From positions 1 to 50,522 of the forward strand of contig JAKEGK010000069.1 of NCBI GenBank assembly GCA_022627515.1: a DNA stretch of 50,522 nucleotides. The letters run 5' to 3'. Shown here one piece after another: positions 679-8,549 of this stretch. This stretch comes from Gammaproteobacteria bacterium. GTDB lineage: Bacteria; Pseudomonadota; Gammaproteobacteria; SZUA-152. Positions within the stretch are counted from its first letter, which is position 1; every line of letters starts with the position of its first letter. The position numbers were made by a program, and so were the translations under genes. Below the pieces are notes generated by a model. That model was not told the origin of the DNA, made no database searches, and saw only the letters and a list, made by a program, of their open reading frames with translations.

Positions 679-1710
679 ATGCGCATCTATAAAAACCGTC
701 AACGCAAAAATTCCCGGGTGCGCCGGCAGGTTCCCGCCACGTCCTATGTTGACTATGAGGTGGAAGGACGCACGCGCGCCAAGTCCCGTTCCCGGCTCGG
801 CCGGTTGATCGCTCACCATGGCTGGGTGGCCAAGACATCTTTGCAGCAAATGCTTCAAACACCGTTATCCACAGCATTAACGGCGGCGGTTATTGCTATT
901 GCTCTATCGTTGCCTTCCGGGTTGTTTTTGTTGCTGAATGATCTGCAAAACATTGTTGTGGGCTGGCAGGGTACGGCGCAGATTTCCGTATTCTTAAAAA
1001 AATCGGTGCCAGGCGCACAGGCAAAAAGTGTCAGCCTCGTGTTGCGCGGTTGGGATGAAATTGCCGAGGTGCGCTATGTCAGCGCGGAGCAGGCGCTGGA
1101 GGAATTTCAGCAACATTCGGGATTTGGTGATGCGTTGAGTATCCTGAACGAGAATCCACTTCCCGCCGTACTGGTGATCACGCCGCGCCGCGAATATTTG
1201 TCTGCCGGAAAATTGCAGCCGTTAGCCAATAAGCTGCGCCAATTACCGGAAGTGGATCTGGTGCAACTGGATCATCAATGGATCGAGCGCCTCAATACAC
1301 TTATCGATCTGGGAAAACGCGGTGCGCTGATTTTGTCGGCTACGCTGGCGCTAGCTGTCCTGATCGTCATCGGTAATACCATTCGTCTGACAATTTACAA
1401 CCGGCGGCAGGAGATCCTGGTCACCAAACTCATCGGCGCCACCAACTCGTTTATCCGCCGGCCCTTTCTGTATACGGGGCTCTGGTACGGGATTGGTGGC
1501 GCAGTGCTTTCGATCACATTAATTTCATTGCTTTTCTGGTTGATCAGCGGGCCGGTGAGATCGCTGGCTGGGCTTTATAACAGCCCGTTCCACTTAACCG
1601 GCCTGACAGTTACGGGCGCCGCATTGGTATTTACCACGGCAGTGGCGCTGGGATTGCTGGGATCCTGGATTGCGGTAACCCGGCATATCCAGCTTATAGA
1701 GCCGAAATAA
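679..1710 (+). CDS. ftsX: Cell division protein FtsX
   Basis: Inner-membrane partner of FtsE that transmits ATPase state to periplasmic activators of cell-wall amidases. The 343-residue protein has a basic cytoplasmic N-terminus (about residues 1-60) and a first membrane segment near 67-87. A periplasmic domain lies at about 90-212, followed by three further membrane segments near 214-236, 266-290 and 308-335, the four-helix FtsX layout. The ATG at 679 is the first good start. A 45-base gap separates it from ftsE, where many relatives overlap. The order ftsE-ftsX-rpoH is conserved in gammaproteobacteria and supports the call. Confidence 0.94.
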   Translation: MRIYKNRQRKNSRVRRQVPATSYVDYEVEGRTRAKSRSRLGRLIAHHGWVAKTSLQQMLQTPLSTALTAAVIAIALSLPSGLFLLLNDLQNIVVGWQGTAQISVFLKKSVPGAQAKSVSLVLRGWDEIAEVRYVSAEQALEEFQQHSGFGDALSILNENPLPAVLVITPRREYLSAGKLQPLANKLRQLPEVDLVQLDHQWIERLNTLIDLGKRGALILSATLALAVLIVIGNTIRLTIYNRRQEILVTKLIGATNSFIRRPFLYTGLWYGIGGAVLSITLISLLFWLISGPVRSLAGLYNSPFHLTGLTVTGAALVFTTAVALGLLGSWIAVTRHIQLIEPK

Positions 1711-1785
1711 GGCGCACTGTCTGACCGGCTCATGTCTATCCTGTTGTATTATTAGAAATTTTCTCCATCTGAACTTTTAACGGTC

Positions 1786-1812
1786 TTAGCACTCATATCC
1801 GCTGAGTGCTAA
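1786..1812 (+). promoter_or_regulatory. CIRCE operator 1 (HrcA site) before rpoH
   Basis: A perfect CIRCE inverted repeat: TTAGCACTC at 1786-1794, nine bases, then GAGTGCTAA at 1804-1812. This is the established binding site of the heat-shock repressor HrcA. It lies 70 bases before the rpoH start. Confidence 0.93.
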
Positions 1813-1818
1813 AATTTC

Positions 1819-1845
1819 TTGGCGCTCATAAAATTCGAGTGCTAA
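1819..1845 (+). promoter_or_regulatory. CIRCE operator 2 (one degenerate arm) before rpoH
   Basis: A second CIRCE begins 33 bases after the first: TTGGCGCTC at 1819-1827, nine bases, then a perfect GAGTGCTAA at 1837-1845. The left arm differs from consensus at two positions. TTGGCG (1819-1824) and TAAACT (1843-1848) with an 18-base spacer could be a weak promoter inside the operator, which would suit direct repression. That promoter reading is tentative. Confidence 0.82.
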
Positions 1846-1881
1846 ACTCCATTCGACACAACTATTTTTTTACGGGGTAAT

Positions 1882-2748
1882 TTGAATATCATGATGCCGA
1901 AAATCCATGCGTTAGATTTGGTGAATCCCAGCGGAAGTCTGGAGGCCTATATCCAGGCGGCCAATCAAATACCAATGCTGGAAGCCGACGAAGAACGGCA
2001 GCTTGCCGAGCGTTTGCAACAGTACGGCGACCTGCAAGCCGCTCAACAACTGGTTATGTCCCATCTGCGTTTTGTGATTCATATCGCCCGGGGATATAGC
2101 GGTTATGGATTGCCCCAGGCTGATTTGATCCAGGAAGGCAACGTCGGTCTTATGAAAGCGGTAAAGCGCTTTGATCCATCCATGAATGTCCGGCTGGTGT
2201 CTTTCGCGGTGCATTGGATCCGCGCCGAGATTCATGAATTCATTTTGCGTAACTGGCGCATCGTTAAACTCGCCACCACCAAGGCGCAGCGCAAGCTATT
2301 CTTTAATTTGCGTAAAAGCAAAAAACACCTGGGCTGGTTTAGCCAGGCGGAAGTCGAGGCCGTTGCCAAAGATTTGAACGTGGCGCCTGAAATCGTGCTC
2401 GAGATGGAAAAACGCATGAGCGGGCAGGATACGCCGTTTGACGGTTATGCCGATGCCAACGATGACGACGGCTACAATCCAGCGCCAGCCGGCTATTTGC
2501 AGGATAACAGCTATGAACCTTCTCTCCTGCTGGAACGGGAAAACAGCGAAGAGTACAACAATGAAAAACTGGCCCAGGCCCTGGAAGCGCTGGATGAAAG
2601 AAGCCGCGATATCCTGCAACTGCGCTGGTTATCAGATTCGAAATCAACCTTGCACGATCTGGCCGCCAAATACAATGTGTCCGCTGAGCGTATCCGCCAG
2701 CTGGAACAGAACGCCATGAAGAAAATGAGAGCCAGTCTGGTTGCATAA
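1882..2748 (+). CDS. rpoH: RNA polymerase heat-shock sigma factor sigma-32
   Basis: Alternative sigma factor that directs RNA polymerase to heat-shock promoters. The 288-residue protein carries the sigma-70 core-binding region ([16 protein letters not shown] and QADLIQEGN), the sigma-32-specific RpoH box QRKLFFNLR at about 136-144, and a region 4 helix-turn-helix ending [13 protein letters not shown]. The start is uncertain. GGGG at 1874-1877 lies 4 bases before the TTG at 1882 and 13 before the ATG at 1891, and both give proteins of normal length. Two CIRCE operators lie just upstream, so expression is probably under HrcA as well as any sigma-32 post-transcriptional control. A strong terminator follows. 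Confidence 0.96.
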
Positions 2749-3081: not shown

Positions 3082-4017
3082 ATGAAACGTATCTTTTTTC
3101 GCAATGTAAATTTTTTATCGTTAGGAATGCTGGTGCTGCTAACGGCTTGCAGTAGTGGTGGTGGTGGAGGTGGTGCCACCGCTCCAACCTACAGTGGTGT
3201 GACTACTCCAGCTGCAGTGAGCGCAAGTAACGCCGAAGAGATAAGCACCACTGCTACGGAAGCAACTGAACAAGCGATTGTTTCGAATAATGCAAGCAAT
3301 AGCAATCCGTTGGGTGTTTCGATTACCGGTTCGACAGATTCTGAAATTCCAAAAAAAGTAGCTGAAATCGTCAAAAAACTGGCCGCCCAAATCCAATTTC
3401 AAAATATTCCAGCGGCAATTACGATTTCGTATACAGAATTCGGCCCCGACTTTTGTGGCGGTTCTGTTACTGTTCCAGACAGTGCTCAAGAGTCAACTAC
3501 AATGAATTTTACAATGACAGTTAATAACCTTTGCTACGATGCGCCGAGTGATGGGTTAAGTCAGGCGGTGATGAATGGTCAGGTCCAATACACGGGAACC
3601 GAAACAACCTTTACAGTCCGGTATATCAACTTCACAGTAACAATGGATGGTCAGACTCATACATTGAATTTAACCATGACTTGCGACGATATAAGCTGCA
3701 CATACTTATCTGATTACGTGGGCGATGATGGCAGCATATATCGAGTCGAGAATTTTAATGTGTCTGGCGATGACGTTAGTGGTTACACTGTAAGTGCGAC
3801 CTTTTATCATCCCACATATGGTTCTGTAGACATTACGACGACCAGTCCAATACTCTTTAATTGTTCTCCCAATCCACAGCCTGGTTCAGGCTCACTTTCC
3901 TTTACAGGCTCTGGCGGAACGTCAGGCAGTATAACTTTTGACAGCTGCGCCGGTTATACGTATTGTTACGATGATGGTGTTGTTGAAGCGCCTGTCTGTG
4001 CCAGTGGTACGTGGTAA
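3082..4017 (+). CDS. Hypothetical secreted lipoprotein
   Basis: I do not recognise a family. The 311-residue protein opens with a signal peptide and lipobox LLTAC, so Cys23 should be lipidated, followed by a Ser/Gly linker (SSGGGGGG). The rest is rich in Thr, Ser and Asn with several cysteines (for example CYD, MTCDDISC, NCSPNP, DSCAGYTYC), which suggests disulfide-bonded beta structure outside the cytoplasm. AGGGAG at 3069-3074 sets the ATG start. Codon use is more AT-rich than in rpoH or the bio genes. It is a single-gene unit with its own -10 box before it and a terminator after it. Confidence 0.75.
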   Translation: MKRIFFRNVNFLSLGMLVLLTACSSGGGGGGATAPTYSGVTTPAAVSASNAEEISTTATEATEQAIVSNNASNSNPLGVSITGSTDSEIPKKVAEIVKKLAAQIQFQNIPAAITISYTEFGPDFCGGSVTVPDSAQESTTMNFTMTVNNLCYDAPSDGLSQAVMNGQVQYTGTETTFTVRYINFTVTMDGQTHTLNLTMTCDDISCTYLSDYVGDDGSIYRVENFNVSGDDVSGYTVSATFYHPTYGSVDITTTSPILFNCSPNPQPGSGSLSFTGSGGTSGSITFDSCAGYTYCYDDGVVEAPVCASGTW

Positions 4018-5028: not shown

Positions 5029-5718
5029 CTATTCTGTTTTCATTAACAGAGAAATATCCAAATCCATTGCAGCCTGGCGGGAAGTGACACTTGAATTGTG
5101 AGGAATGATTCCCAGCAACGGCGATGGAATCAGCTGTTTCAGACACTCGATATTATTCTTACTCTTTTCCATTGTCGGCGAAATGTGATTCGCCACCCAC
5201 CCCGTTAAAACCATACCTTTAGATCTAATACTCTCCACGCTGAGTAATGCATGATTCAAACATCCCAGCCGCATGCCTACCACCAGTATTACGGGTAAAT
5301 TTAAACTTGCCGCGGCGTCAGCCATGGTTTGATGGTCATTTACAGGCACCAGCCATCCCCCCGCCCCTTCTACAATAACGATATCGGCATTCGAAGCGAT
5401 TTGCCGGTAGCAATGCTTGATATGCTGGATATCAATATTTATTCCGGCTAATTGCGCCGCTATGTGGGGAGCGACTGCCGGTTTAAACGCATAGGGATTG
5501 ATTAATTCATAGGGCAGTGCGACTGATGCAGCACGCATAAGAAGCTCCGCATCGTCGTTACGCAGGCCATCTTTAGTTTCACGGCCGCCCGCGGATACCG
5601 GCTTCATGCCAGTGACTTGTTTGCCCTGCGCTTTAAACGCGCTCATTAATGCCAGCGCAACGTGGGTTTTGCCGACGCTGGTGTCGGTGCCTGTAATGAA
5701 ATAGCCCTTCGCTGTCAA
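5029..5718 (-). CDS. bioD: Dethiobiotin synthetase BioD
   Basis: ATP-dependent carboxylation and ring closure of 7,8-diaminopelargonate to dethiobiotin, the next-to-last step of biotin synthesis. The P-loop GTDTSVGKT lies at residues 10-18, KPVSAG follows near 40, and the acidic motif VEGAGGWLVP near 115 is typical of BioD. Its 229 residues are normal for the family. It is the last gene of the leftward bio operon, starting 2 bases after the bioC stop, which suggests translational coupling. bioA, which makes the substrate, is not in this window. Confidence 0.96.
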   Translation of the reverse strand: MTAKGYFITGTDTSVGKTHVALALMSAFKAQGKQVTGMKPVSAGGRETKDGLRNDDAELLMRAASVALPYELINPYAFKPAVAPHIAAQLAGINIDIQHIKHCYRQIASNADIVIVEGAGGWLVPVNDHQTMADAAASLNLPVILVVGMRLGCLNHALLSVESIRSKGMVLTGWVANHISPTMEKSKNNIECLKQLIPSPLLGIIPHNSSVTSRQAAMDLDISLLMKTE

Positions 5719-5720
5719 AG

Positions 5721-6626
5721 TTATTTTCCTGTCCGGCCAGGCCTTCTTTGAAAATCGACCTGCACCGTGTCGATCGCTTTTGTTTCCAGTGGTTTAGTTT
5801 CCGGGCGCCAGGCATGTCCATAGACAATTTCATAAGTTGCCGGCAGCCTGCCATCGTTGCGGAAGCGCTCGTATGCCTGCAGCATTTGCCGCAAATGGGT
5901 CTTTCCTGTGAGGTTGTGCGGACGGTCCGTCTGCGCATTGTGGGCGCCGAGCATTTTCAGTTCGCGCATTAATTGCAAGCCGTCCTTAAAGGTCAATGTG
6001 AAGTATTCCATATCCATTACCGGATCGGCCAGCCGCGCGCGCAACAACGCATCGCCCACATCATGCATATCGATAAATGGATGCACATGATGTCCATTAT
6101 CAATAGTGCGCCAACTGTGCCGCAATTCCTTTAGCGTGTCCGGACCCAGGGAGCTGAACATGAGCAGGCCGCCGGGTTTTAAAACCCGGCGGAATTCGCT
6201 GAATGCCGCTGTTAAATCATTACACCATTGCAAGGTCAGGTTGGAAAAAATAAGATCCACGCTTTGATCGGCAATGGGCAGGCGTTCGGCGTCGCCACAG
6301 ATAAACACCGGACGCCGTCCGAATAACATCTGGCGCCAGGTCAATTTGGACCGGGCTTTGCCCAGCATTTGCTCCGCAAAGTCCATTCCAATGACGTGCG
6401 CCTGCTTGAAGAATTGTCTCAGTTGAATAGTTAAATAACCGGTGCCGCAGCCAACGTCGATGATGAATTTTGGGTTTAAGCGAATGATATGCATTCTTTC
6501 CAGCAAGCGCAGACCCACCTCGCGCTGTAACGCGGCGGCTCCATCGTAGGTGCTGGCGGCTTTGTTAAACGATTGCCGCGCGGCTTGTTTATCGATGGGT
6601 GCGTTGTGTGTGTTGCGATGATTCAT
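5721..6626 (-). CDS. bioC: Malonyl-ACP O-methyltransferase BioC
   Basis: SAM-dependent enzyme that methylates the free carboxyl of malonyl-ACP so that fatty-acid synthesis can build the pimeloyl chain. The class I methyltransferase motif IIDVGCGTGYL lies at about 55-65, GDAERLP near 112, and FSNLTLQW and LKPGGLLMFSSLG follow in the usual order. The N-terminal sequence RQSFNKAASTYD is typical of BioC. The start overlaps the end of bioH by 38 bases, and no alternative ATG or GTG start was seen that would avoid the overlap. At 301 residues it is somewhat longer than E. coli BioC, with a C-terminal extension. Confidence 0.95.
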   Translation of the reverse strand: MNHRNTHNAPIDKQAARQSFNKAASTYDGAAALQREVGLRLLERMHIIRLNPKFIIDVGCGTGYLTIQLRQFFKQAHVIGMDFAEQMLGKARSKLTWRQMLFGRRPVFICGDAERLPIADQSVDLIFSNLTLQWCNDLTAAFSEFRRVLKPGGLLMFSSLGPDTLKELRHSWRTIDNGHHVHPFIDMHDVGDALLRARLADPVMDMEYFTLTFKDGLQLMRELKMLGAHNAQTDRPHNLTGKTHLRQMLQAYERFRNDGRLPATYEIVYGHAWRPETKPLETKAIDTVQVDFQRRPGRTGK

Positions 6627-7386
6627 TGATAAATGCGGTGGTTATGTCCATAAACACACTCATATGTGACAGAAAAGGCGCGTGACCGGCGCCCTTTATA
6701 ACTGCCAGCCGCGCGTTGGGCAGCAATCTGGCGGTATCAGTTCCGGAACCTGCGGGGACAAGCGTGTCTTTTTCGCCCAGTAGTATTAATACCGGGCAGT
6801 GAATGTTTGACAGCTGTGGCCGCAAATTGCAATTGGTTAACAGGTTGAGTCCTTCCTGCAAGGCGGTCAGTTGCGGTTCACCATTGATAAATACTTTTTC
6901 ACGCAATCCTTTGATGGTAAGCCTGGCCTGTTCGCTGCCCAGCGCCTGGATGGCCAGGAAGCGTTGAATTGTCGCGCGGTAATCATCAGCCAGGCCTTGC
7001 GCGAATCCCTGAATCACCTGTTTTTCGACGGCGTGGGGCCAGTCACTGGAGCGCACAAACTGCGGCGATCCCGCTACCAAAACCAGTTTTGCGATTAACT
7101 CCGGGTAACGTTGCGCCAGGTTTAACGCGATCAAACCGCCCAGCGACCAGCCAATTACAATAGCGTTGCCGCTAATAATCTGTACCAGCTCTTCGGTAAC
7201 TGCATCAAGATCGTAACAGCCACCCGCCGGCAAATCACTTTTGCCGTGGCCGGGTAGATCGACAGCAATGACCTGACCGTATTGCGTAAGCGCGGGTATT
7301 ACAGAATCCCACACGCGGCCGCTCAACGCCCAGCCATGCAGCAGGTAAATCGGAGCACCGGCGCCAAAAGTCTGGTAATGCAGCAT
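6589..7386 (-). CDS. bioH: Pimeloyl-ACP methyl ester carboxylesterase BioH
   Basis: Alpha/beta hydrolase that removes the methyl group from pimeloyl-ACP methyl ester, ending chain elongation for biotin. The nucleophile Ser81 lies in GWSLGG, the acid is in GEKDTLVP, and the His is in GAGHAPFLSH; the oxyanion region LLHGWALSG is near residue 16. The ATG shares one base with the bioF stop (TAATG), and the 3' end overlaps bioC by 38 bases, so bioF-bioH-bioC translation is tightly linked. In E. coli bioH is unlinked; here it sits within the operon next to its functional partner bioC. Confidence 0.95.
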   Translation of the reverse strand: MLHYQTFGAGAPIYLLHGWALSGRVWDSVIPALTQYGQVIAVDLPGHGKSDLPAGGCYDLDAVTEELVQIISGNAIVIGWSLGGLIALNLAQRYPELIAKLVLVAGSPQFVRSSDWPHAVEKQVIQGFAQGLADDYRATIQRFLAIQALGSEQARLTIKGLREKVFINGEPQLTALQEGLNLLTNCNLRPQLSNIHCPVLILLGEKDTLVPAGSGTDTARLLPNARLAVIKGAGHAPFLSHMSVFMDITTAFINESSQHTQRTHR

Positions 7387-8549
7387 TAGAGCAACTTCTC
7401 GAGTTGAGAGAGTAACCGCTCGACATCCTGCACTTCATGCGATGCGCTGAAGGTGATACGCAACCGGGCGCTATTCACCGGCACGGTGGGTGGCCGGATC
7501 GCGGAAATAAGAAAACCGTGATCAAACAGCTGCTGGCTGACGTGTAAGGTTTTAGCGTTATCGCCAATGATCAGGGGCTGGATCGGTGTCGCCGAATCCG
7601 TGAGCGGCAGACCCAGCTCACCCGCGCCGCGGCGAAATAGACTGACCAGACTGCCGAGTTTCTCGCGGCGCCATTGCTCCTGTTGCGCCAGATGCAAACT
7701 GACACGGGTGGCTTCAGCGATCGCCGGTGGCAGCGCGGTGGTATAAATGTACGTGCGCGCTTCCTGGATCAGAAATTCAATCAGGTTTTCCTCACCGCTG
7801 ATAAACGCGCCAAAACTTCCGAATGCTTTGCCCAGCGTACCCATCAATACCGGGACGTCCTTCGCGGACAAGCCATGATAATCCACCGTTCCCCTGCCCT
7901 CTTCGCCGATTACCCCGAGGCCATGCGCATCATCGACCATCAGCCAGGCATTGTGATCCCTGGCGAAGCTGGCGAGCGCCGGGAGTGGCGCGATGCCGCC
8001 ATCCATGCTGAAAACGCCATCGGTGACAATCAGTTTCTTGGTAGCGTTGCACTTGTTAAGTAATTCGATCAGGGATTGCGTGTCGCCATGCCGGTAGCGG
8101 TAAAAACGGGCGCCGCTATACAGGCCGGCGTCAATTAACGAGGCGTGATTCAAGCGGTCTTCAAATACCGCATCACCCTCGCCCAATAACGCCGCGATGG
8201 CGCCGAGGTTTGCCATATAGCCGGTGGAGAATAACAACGCCCGCGGCCGTCCGGTGAATTCCGCGAGTTCCTCTTCCAGCGCGTGATGCGCCGCACTGTG
8301 GCCGCATATCAAATGCGCGGCGCCGCTGCCCACACCGTATTGTTGCGCGCCTTTTTGCAATGCCTTGATCACTTCCGGATGATTAGCCAATCCCAGGTAA
8401 TCATTGCTGCAAAATGACAGGTACTCCTTATTGCCAATCGTAAGGCGCGTGTTTTGCGGACCGGCAATAACACGCCGGGAGCGGTACAAGTGTTGCTCCC
8501 AGCGCAGCCGCAGGCTTTGCGCAATGGCGGTTTCAAATGGCGTTGGCAC
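7386..8549 (-). CDS. bioF: 8-amino-7-oxononanoate synthase BioF
   Basis: PLP-dependent decarboxylative condensation of pimeloyl-ACP with L-alanine, the first step of biotin ring assembly. The 387-residue protein shows the alpha-oxoamine synthase features SNDYLGLANHP, LICGHSAAHHALEEELA, DDAHGLGVIGEEGRG, and the PLP-lysine motif GTLGKAFGSFGAF near residue 240. The start is the ATG at 8549. A 61-base gap separates it from bioB, and it overlaps bioH by one base. Confidence 0.96.
   Translation of the reverse strand: MPTPFETAIAQSLRLRWEQHLYRSRRVIAGPQNTRLTIGNKEYLSFCSNDYLGLANHPEVIKALQKGAQQYGVGSGAAHLICGHSAAHHALEEELAEFTGRPRALLFSTGYMANLGAIAALLGEGDAVFEDRLNHASLIDAGLYSGARFYRYRHGDTQSLIELLNKCNATKKLIVTDGVFSMDGGIAPLPALASFARDHNAWLMVDDAHGLGVIGEEGRGTVDYHGLSAKDVPVLMGTLGKAFGSFGAFISGEENLIEFLIQEARTYIYTTALPPAIAEATRVSLHLAQQEQWRREKLGSLVSLFRRGAGELGLPLTDSATPIQPLIIGDNAKTLHVSQQLFDHGFLISAIRPPTVPVNSARLRITFSASHEVQDVERLLSQLEKLL

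Follow-up and report, generated by a model that had tools for sequence, protein, structure and literature searches.

The rpoH control region in the window (the whole stretch of 50,522 nucleotides from a gammaproteobacterial assembly that was analysed) is likely to be composite, with a putative HrcA operator (CIRCE) lying over a sigma-70-type and a sigma-E-type promoter and with HrcA placed upstream of sigma-32. This reading was reached by sequence comparison among relatives of the source genome. The HrcA and sigma-32 heat-shock controls are usually taught as parallel; in many related bacteria they are probably wired in series.

CIRCEs and genes in the window and the source genome

CIRCEs were searched with the pattern TTAGCACTC-N9-GAGTGCTAA. 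With up to three mismatches allowed, the 50,522-base window contained only two matches, CIRCE 1 and CIRCE 2, located 105 to 45 bp ahead of the rpoH ATG at 1891. Shuffled windows gave a mean of 0.02 matches, and two matches were obtained in 0 of 100 shuffles. The initial annotation, which had described two CIRCEs with 9-nt spacers before this gene, was therefore borne out: CIRCE 1 has 0 mismatches and CIRCE 2 has 2, both in the left arm, which reads TTGGCGCTC, with the right arm perfect. The two starts are 33 bp apart (~3.1 helical turns, by arithmetic only). An operator near a promoter, as expected of a regulon member, is provided at rpoH by both CIRCEs. Features of the region are as follows.

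679..1710, + strand: ftsX, upstream neighbour (TIGR00439, 352.8 bits)
1771..1776, + strand: sigma-E-type -35 (GAACTT), starting 15 bp before CIRCE 1
1786..1812, + strand: CIRCE 1, putative HrcA operator; perfect, 0 mismatches; kept in relatives
1786..1791, + strand: putative sigma-70 -35 (TTAGCA), identical to bases 1-6 of CIRCE 1; matches the consensus, 18-nt spacer; also based on arm asymmetry
1793..1797, + strand: sigma-E-type -10 (TCATA), N16 after the -35; end of the CIRCE 1 left arm plus spacer
1807..1815, + strand: putative extended -10 (TGC TAAAAT), end of CIRCE 1 plus 3 bases; based on the conserved T
1819..1845, + strand: CIRCE 2, second putative HrcA operator; 2 mismatches; degenerate counterpart in the nearest relative, G002
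1819..1824, + strand: putative second sigma-70 -35 (TTGGCG), based on sequence; G002 has TTGGCA
1840..1848, + strand: putative second extended -10 (TGC TAAACT), based on sequence; TGCTAAACT retained in G002
1891..2748, + strand: target gene rpoH (sigma-32), TIGR02392 equivalog; TTG 1882 is a possible alternative start

The gene following the CIRCEs had been named as that for sigma-32, and the curated model TIGR02392 returned the same identity (411.5 bits, cut-off 323.1). Gene order is ftsE-ftsX-rpoH, with ftsE named from its own sequence. Downstream of rpoH, positions 3082-4017 encode a predicted lipoprotein (LLTACSSGGGGGG start), and the minus-strand genes at 5029-8549 resemble bioD, bioC, bioH and bioF, which we take to be genes of biotin synthesis. 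CIRCE 1 scored terminator-like and was rejected as a terminator, its stem being followed by no long T run.

The source assembly is 4.45 Mb in size and 97% complete. The initial annotation had tied its reading to the presence of hrcA in the genome; one copy was found (TIGR00331, 341 bits, cut-off 197.2), so that objection falls away, and its protein aligned to the solved HrcA structure 1stz across 326 residues (1e-23). The gene heads the operon hrcA-grpE-dnaK-dnaJ, the last three members of which were named from their sequences, and no CIRCE with three or fewer mismatches was found ahead of it within the 229 bases up to the contig end. A sigma-E-type promoter calls in turn for rpoE, and one copy is present (TIGR02939, 329 bits, curated cut-off 236.15).

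Over the whole assembly, matches with three or fewer mismatches consisted of CIRCE 1, CIRCE 2, a perfect site at a groESL operon and a 3-mismatch site ahead of a second groES; with the pattern reversed as a control, one match was obtained at this stringency. The perfect site, the kind of additional CIRCE that the initial annotation had proposed to look for, ends ~58 bp before the groES ATG. The second groESL operon has just the 3-mismatch site, 437 bp upstream and near chance level; given this distance and the single reversed-control match, it is at most a candidate member of the regulon. The two groESL operons (source genome G000, contigs C109 and C228; L172 and L174) are probably differently regulated, as one alone has a good CIRCE.

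Putative promoter elements superimposed on the rpoH CIRCE

The rpoH CIRCE is superimposed on two putative promoters, one of the sigma-E type (GAACTT-N16-TC) and one of the sigma-70 type with an extended -10 (TTRGCA-N18-TAAnnT). In the window this composite element spans 1771-1815. Compared with the sigma-E consensus GGAACTT-N15-17-TCnnA, the window reads GAACTT-N16-TCATA and conforms to it, with T instead of G preceding GAACTT. A GAACTT at the conserved distance is present for CIRCE 1 only and is absent for CIRCE 2.

CIRCEs were collected from 135 rpoH upstream regions, with some genomes reached twice, yielding 85 distinct CIRCEs that were thinned to 67 at 60% identity of spacer plus flanks. 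For comparison, 50 groES upstream regions yielded 36 distinct CIRCEs and, after identical thinning, 25. A T three bases past the CIRCE was present in 61/67 rpoH sites against 3/25 groES sites (Fisher 7e-13); this conserved T yields the TGC-TAAnnT extended -10, 18 nt past the opening hexamer of the operator. The left-arm change A3G, towards the -35 consensus TTGACA, was found at 25/67 rpoH and 4/25 groES sites, and its mirror change in the right arm, T25C, at 0/67 and 2/25, respectively. GAAC started 14-17 bp ahead of the CIRCE at 49 of the 67 rpoH sites (15-16 bp at 48 of them), compared to a shuffle mean of 1.1 and maximum of 5; among the 25 groES CIRCEs it was found at 14 bp in one and at 15-16 bp in none. 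This placement separates GAACTT from the left-arm TC by 16 or 17 bases, the gap from GAACNN to TC being 16 nt at 39 rpoH CIRCEs and 17 nt at 9, and a gap of 16-17 bases from GAACTT to TC is the spacing of sigma-E promoters. Unlike the rpoH operators, which putatively form sigma-E/sigma-70 promoter elements, groES CIRCEs from this class form none.

The composite pattern in a larger sample

Since the promoter features had first been spotted by eye in the data just described, they were retested on a larger sample of 369 gammaproteobacterial genomes (272 genera), at least 37 of which were also in the first set. The strict composite pattern, GAAC-N11/12-TTRGCACTC-N9-GAGTGCTAR-NNT, was found in 123/369 genomes (87/272 genera), one per genome. 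Its reversed control produced no match in the 369 genomes, and the composite with a last base other than T was found in 7/369, against 123 with T. At the composite loci checked (30 of the 123), rpoH followed in the same orientation in all 30, at a distance of 22-304 bases.

The strict composite was present in 116/268 genomes with hrcA versus 7/101 without (Fisher 1e-12); 152 of the 369 genomes have hrcA and no strict composite, and 94 have neither. Six of the seven composite genomes without hrcA are no more than 88% complete, and the seventh, G116, is 99% complete. A sample of 200 genomes from the phylum gave the composite in 3/51 gammaproteobacterial genomes and 0/149 of other classes; this sample leans to complete genomes, and the frequency of the composite in the class therefore depends on sampling.

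CIRCE before rpoH in relatives with and without hrcA

Relatives of the source genome are mostly uncultured gammaproteobacterial genomes. Fifty-seven were taken, of which 54 had an rpoH match, giving 55 upstream regions (G055 has two copies); the rpoH of G007 is split across two contigs and the start-bearing piece was used. Within the source family, a CIRCE preceded rpoH in 24/24 genomes with an rpoH match, 23 of these sites having a 9-nt spacer and three or fewer mismatches and that of G003 an 8-nt spacer. When one genome per family was taken across the class, leaving out three genomes without an rpoH match, the site was present in 16/18 with hrcA versus 2/12 without (Fisher 1.2e-4); G028, one of the two exceptions, is 62% complete. 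The comparison of relatives suggested in the initial annotation thus found the site kept and co-occurring with hrcA. Conservation of an operator in relatives, following hrcA, is expected of a regulon member and holds here with exceptions. One CIRCE ahead of rpoH is common across the class, and the arrangement is therefore not peculiar to the source genome.

Eighty named loci were picked by similarity to the window RpoH, and the site preceded rpoH in 50 of them; the 30 counted as lacking it include L079 (85 bp upstream) and L037 (8-nt variant). A search for hrcA in the genomes of 50 of the 80 loci found it in 23/26 with the site and 13/24 without; one of those 13 genomes, that of L083, has a further rpoH (L104) that does carry a site. 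A missing hrcA alone therefore cannot explain a missing site, and the 13 rpoH loci with hrcA and no CIRCE indicate that the HrcA-rpoH link is dispensable. The Pseudomonas and Azotobacter rpoH loci have no site, and the four of their genomes that were searched, those of L082, L085, L100 and L113, have no hrcA. In genomes with hrcA and no site, a hunt for degenerate CIRCEs up to 7 mismatches returned no convincing site beyond 5-mismatch remnants at -92 of L083 and L094.

An 8-nt-spacer CIRCE (TTGGCACTC-N8-GAGTGCTAG) was found only at G003 (L016), whose contig also entered the set as L037, and was counted apart. The shorter spacer at G003/L037 gives the promoter a 17-nt spacer and may mean that selection favoured the promoter more than the operator. 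Two rpoH copies, one with a clear CIRCE, were observed in a Thiotrichaceae MAG (L083 without the site, L104 with it) and also in G055; the copy without a clear CIRCE looks, by its upstream sequence, as if it had escaped from HrcA. In G039 (L165), which is 97% complete, a 1-mismatch CIRCE precedes rpoH and no hrcA match was found; G188 of the same genus has hrcA.

Other observations also count against control of rpoH by HrcA: in E. coli sigma-32 is controlled chiefly after transcription, and most sites in the source family deviate from the CIRCE pattern at 2-3 positions, frequently on the right-arm side (GATTGCTAA or GACTGCTAA). Such mismatched sites would suit an explanation in which the conserved element is mainly a sigma-E/sigma-70 promoter pair, the CIRCE is a relic or a weak, rarely occupied operator, and the level of sigma-32 is determined post-transcriptionally, as it is in E. 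coli. Also in keeping with it, several hrcA genomes lacking an rpoH CIRCE retain a sigma-E-type promoter (L061, L065, L073, L081), and GAACYY-N15-17-TCnnA is present in 17/41 upstream regions without a CIRCE. A mere promoter would, however, have no use for a pair of palindromic arms of 9 bases each. Positions 2, 4, 5, 8, 9, 19 and 22-26 of the CIRCE are invariant across the 67 rpoH sites, several of them outside the promoter hexamers, and the presence of the site tracks hrcA. The promoter-only explanation is accordingly considered unlikely. In Xylella under nitrogen starvation, hrcA rises 4-fold and rpoH 2-fold according to the available portion of PMC3224663; if Xylella carries the site, this joint rise would not look like strong repression.

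The second site

Conservation marks out the first CIRCE, the second being a rare and local gain. Two CIRCEs with three or fewer mismatches each precede rpoH in 2/135 regions, those of the window and of G033 from another family. The G033 tandem, a 1-mismatch site paired with a perfect one at a spacing of 32 bp, is on sequence grounds an independent case. The strict tandem pattern was found only in the window among the 369 genomes; it does not pick up G033, where the first site has GCAGTC. In the nearest relative, G002, the first site is perfect and is followed 34 bp further by TTGGCACTT-N8-CAATGCTAA, then ACT; this copy has 4 mismatches and an 8-nt spacer, and 3/5000 shuffles were as good. Given this degenerate counterpart, the second site probably arose in the ancestor of both genera, and among the two it was probably kept as a good operator only in the source genome.

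The G002 copy retains the -35 and -10 letters (TTGGCA-N17-TAAACT with TGC) and has lost the operator arms, as would be the case if a sigma-70 promoter had been duplicated to give the tandem and the second copy were retained for its promoter function and not as an operator. That reading is possible but less likely, as the right arm of CIRCE 2 in the window is perfect and its spacer is 9 nt, and the G033 tandem of two good operators arose independently.

Starts at the sigma-E or the first sigma-70 promoter would put CIRCE 2 in the rpoH leader. A role at the mRNA level has been proposed for CIRCE in Bacillus leaders, and HrcA control of rpoH could likewise act mainly on RNA, with the leader palindrome governing mRNA stability or causing attenuation; the terminator-like score of CIRCE 1 would agree with this. 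CIRCE 1, however, coincides with -35 and -10 elements and so would not be transcribed in full, its stem lacks the long T run, and the second site is confined to the 2 upstream regions above, making RNA-level control highly improbable.

Relation to known systems

The arrangement resembles HrcA/CIRCE repression of groESL and dnaK operons in its operator consensus, 9-nt spacer, hrcA and the perfect groESL CIRCE of the source genome, and differs in that the target is the gene for a heat-shock sigma factor. The sigma-E-dependent rpoH promoter of E. coli is named P3, and the E. coli K-12 rpoH sequence contains GAACTT-N16-TCTGA, the same geometry as in the window. E. coli K-12 has no CIRCE at rpoH and gave no match in the HrcA control search, whereas the window has a CIRCE superimposed. 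For P. aeruginosa rpoH, the portion of PMC9866376 available describes a sigma-E P3 plus two housekeeping promoters.

For Geobacter sulfurreducens, a perfect CIRCE has been predicted ahead of rpoH, at position -51 (Rodionov et al. 2004, PMC545781, Table 8). The idea is thus not new, in line with the belief recorded in the initial annotation that such sites had already been suggested for some proteobacteria. That case is a prediction of a single site in a delta-proteobacterium, and in the available part of the source promoter overlap is not described. Two CIRCEs are given upstream of Lactobacillus plantarum hrcA in the part of PMC3842655 available, likewise two operators for one transcription unit; there the target is a class I chaperone operon in a Gram-positive organism, not a sigma factor gene. 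In the open-licence literature neither a CIRCE/promoter overlap nor a gammaproteobacterial CIRCE before rpoH was found; Permina and Gelfand 2003, on the same subject, may well report some. The accessible portions of PMC3842655, PMC3224663, PMC11764788, PMC1978210, PMC10490939 and PMC10696704 report no CIRCE at rpoH. The new element would be the architecture, a CIRCE laid over two putative promoters at rpoH and not at groES.

Proposed regulation and its significance

In Bacillus, the availability of GroE governs HrcA occupancy. By the composite reading, as long as proteins are folded and leave GroE unoccupied, HrcA on the CIRCE would bar both sigma-70 and sigma-E polymerase from rpoH. When unfolded protein occupies GroE, HrcA would leave the CIRCE, rpoH and groESL would go up jointly, and sigma-32 would then switch on the remaining genes, including the hrcA-grpE-dnaK-dnaJ operon. 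Under envelope stress sigma-E would drive rpoH, though only after HrcA had departed. In the source genome, which has a second operator-promoter copy 33 bp further on, another HrcA dimer would bind on the same DNA face, and HrcA at CIRCE 2 could form a second block for transcripts begun at the first promoter.

The initial annotation had placed HrcA above sigma-32 as a master switch. The position above sigma-32 fits a conserved site that co-occurs with hrcA; its role as sole switch does not stand, for the CIRCE overlaps conserved sigma-E- and sigma-70-type elements, so that rpoH would retain an envelope-stress input and HrcA would be one of at least two inputs.

A broader proposal, to which we give even chances, is that a single fused rpoH element operates across much of Gammaproteobacteria, in which a 27-bp HrcA operator doubles as sigma-70 core and sigma-E -10. 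HrcA would thereby gate both the housekeeping and the envelope-stress supply of sigma-32, and E. coli and Pseudomonas would be lineages in which the HrcA gate was lost while the sigma-E promoter stayed. Series wiring, if true, would account for the choice of groESL and rpoH as CIRCE-bearing targets in the source genome. For a large share of Gammaproteobacteria, a GroE-sensing repressor would then limit sigma-32 synthesis, and sigma-E would act on the same DNA as another input; the loss of this control in E. coli along with hrcA would have a testable account, and the composite sequence could be used as a flag for genomes wired in this way.
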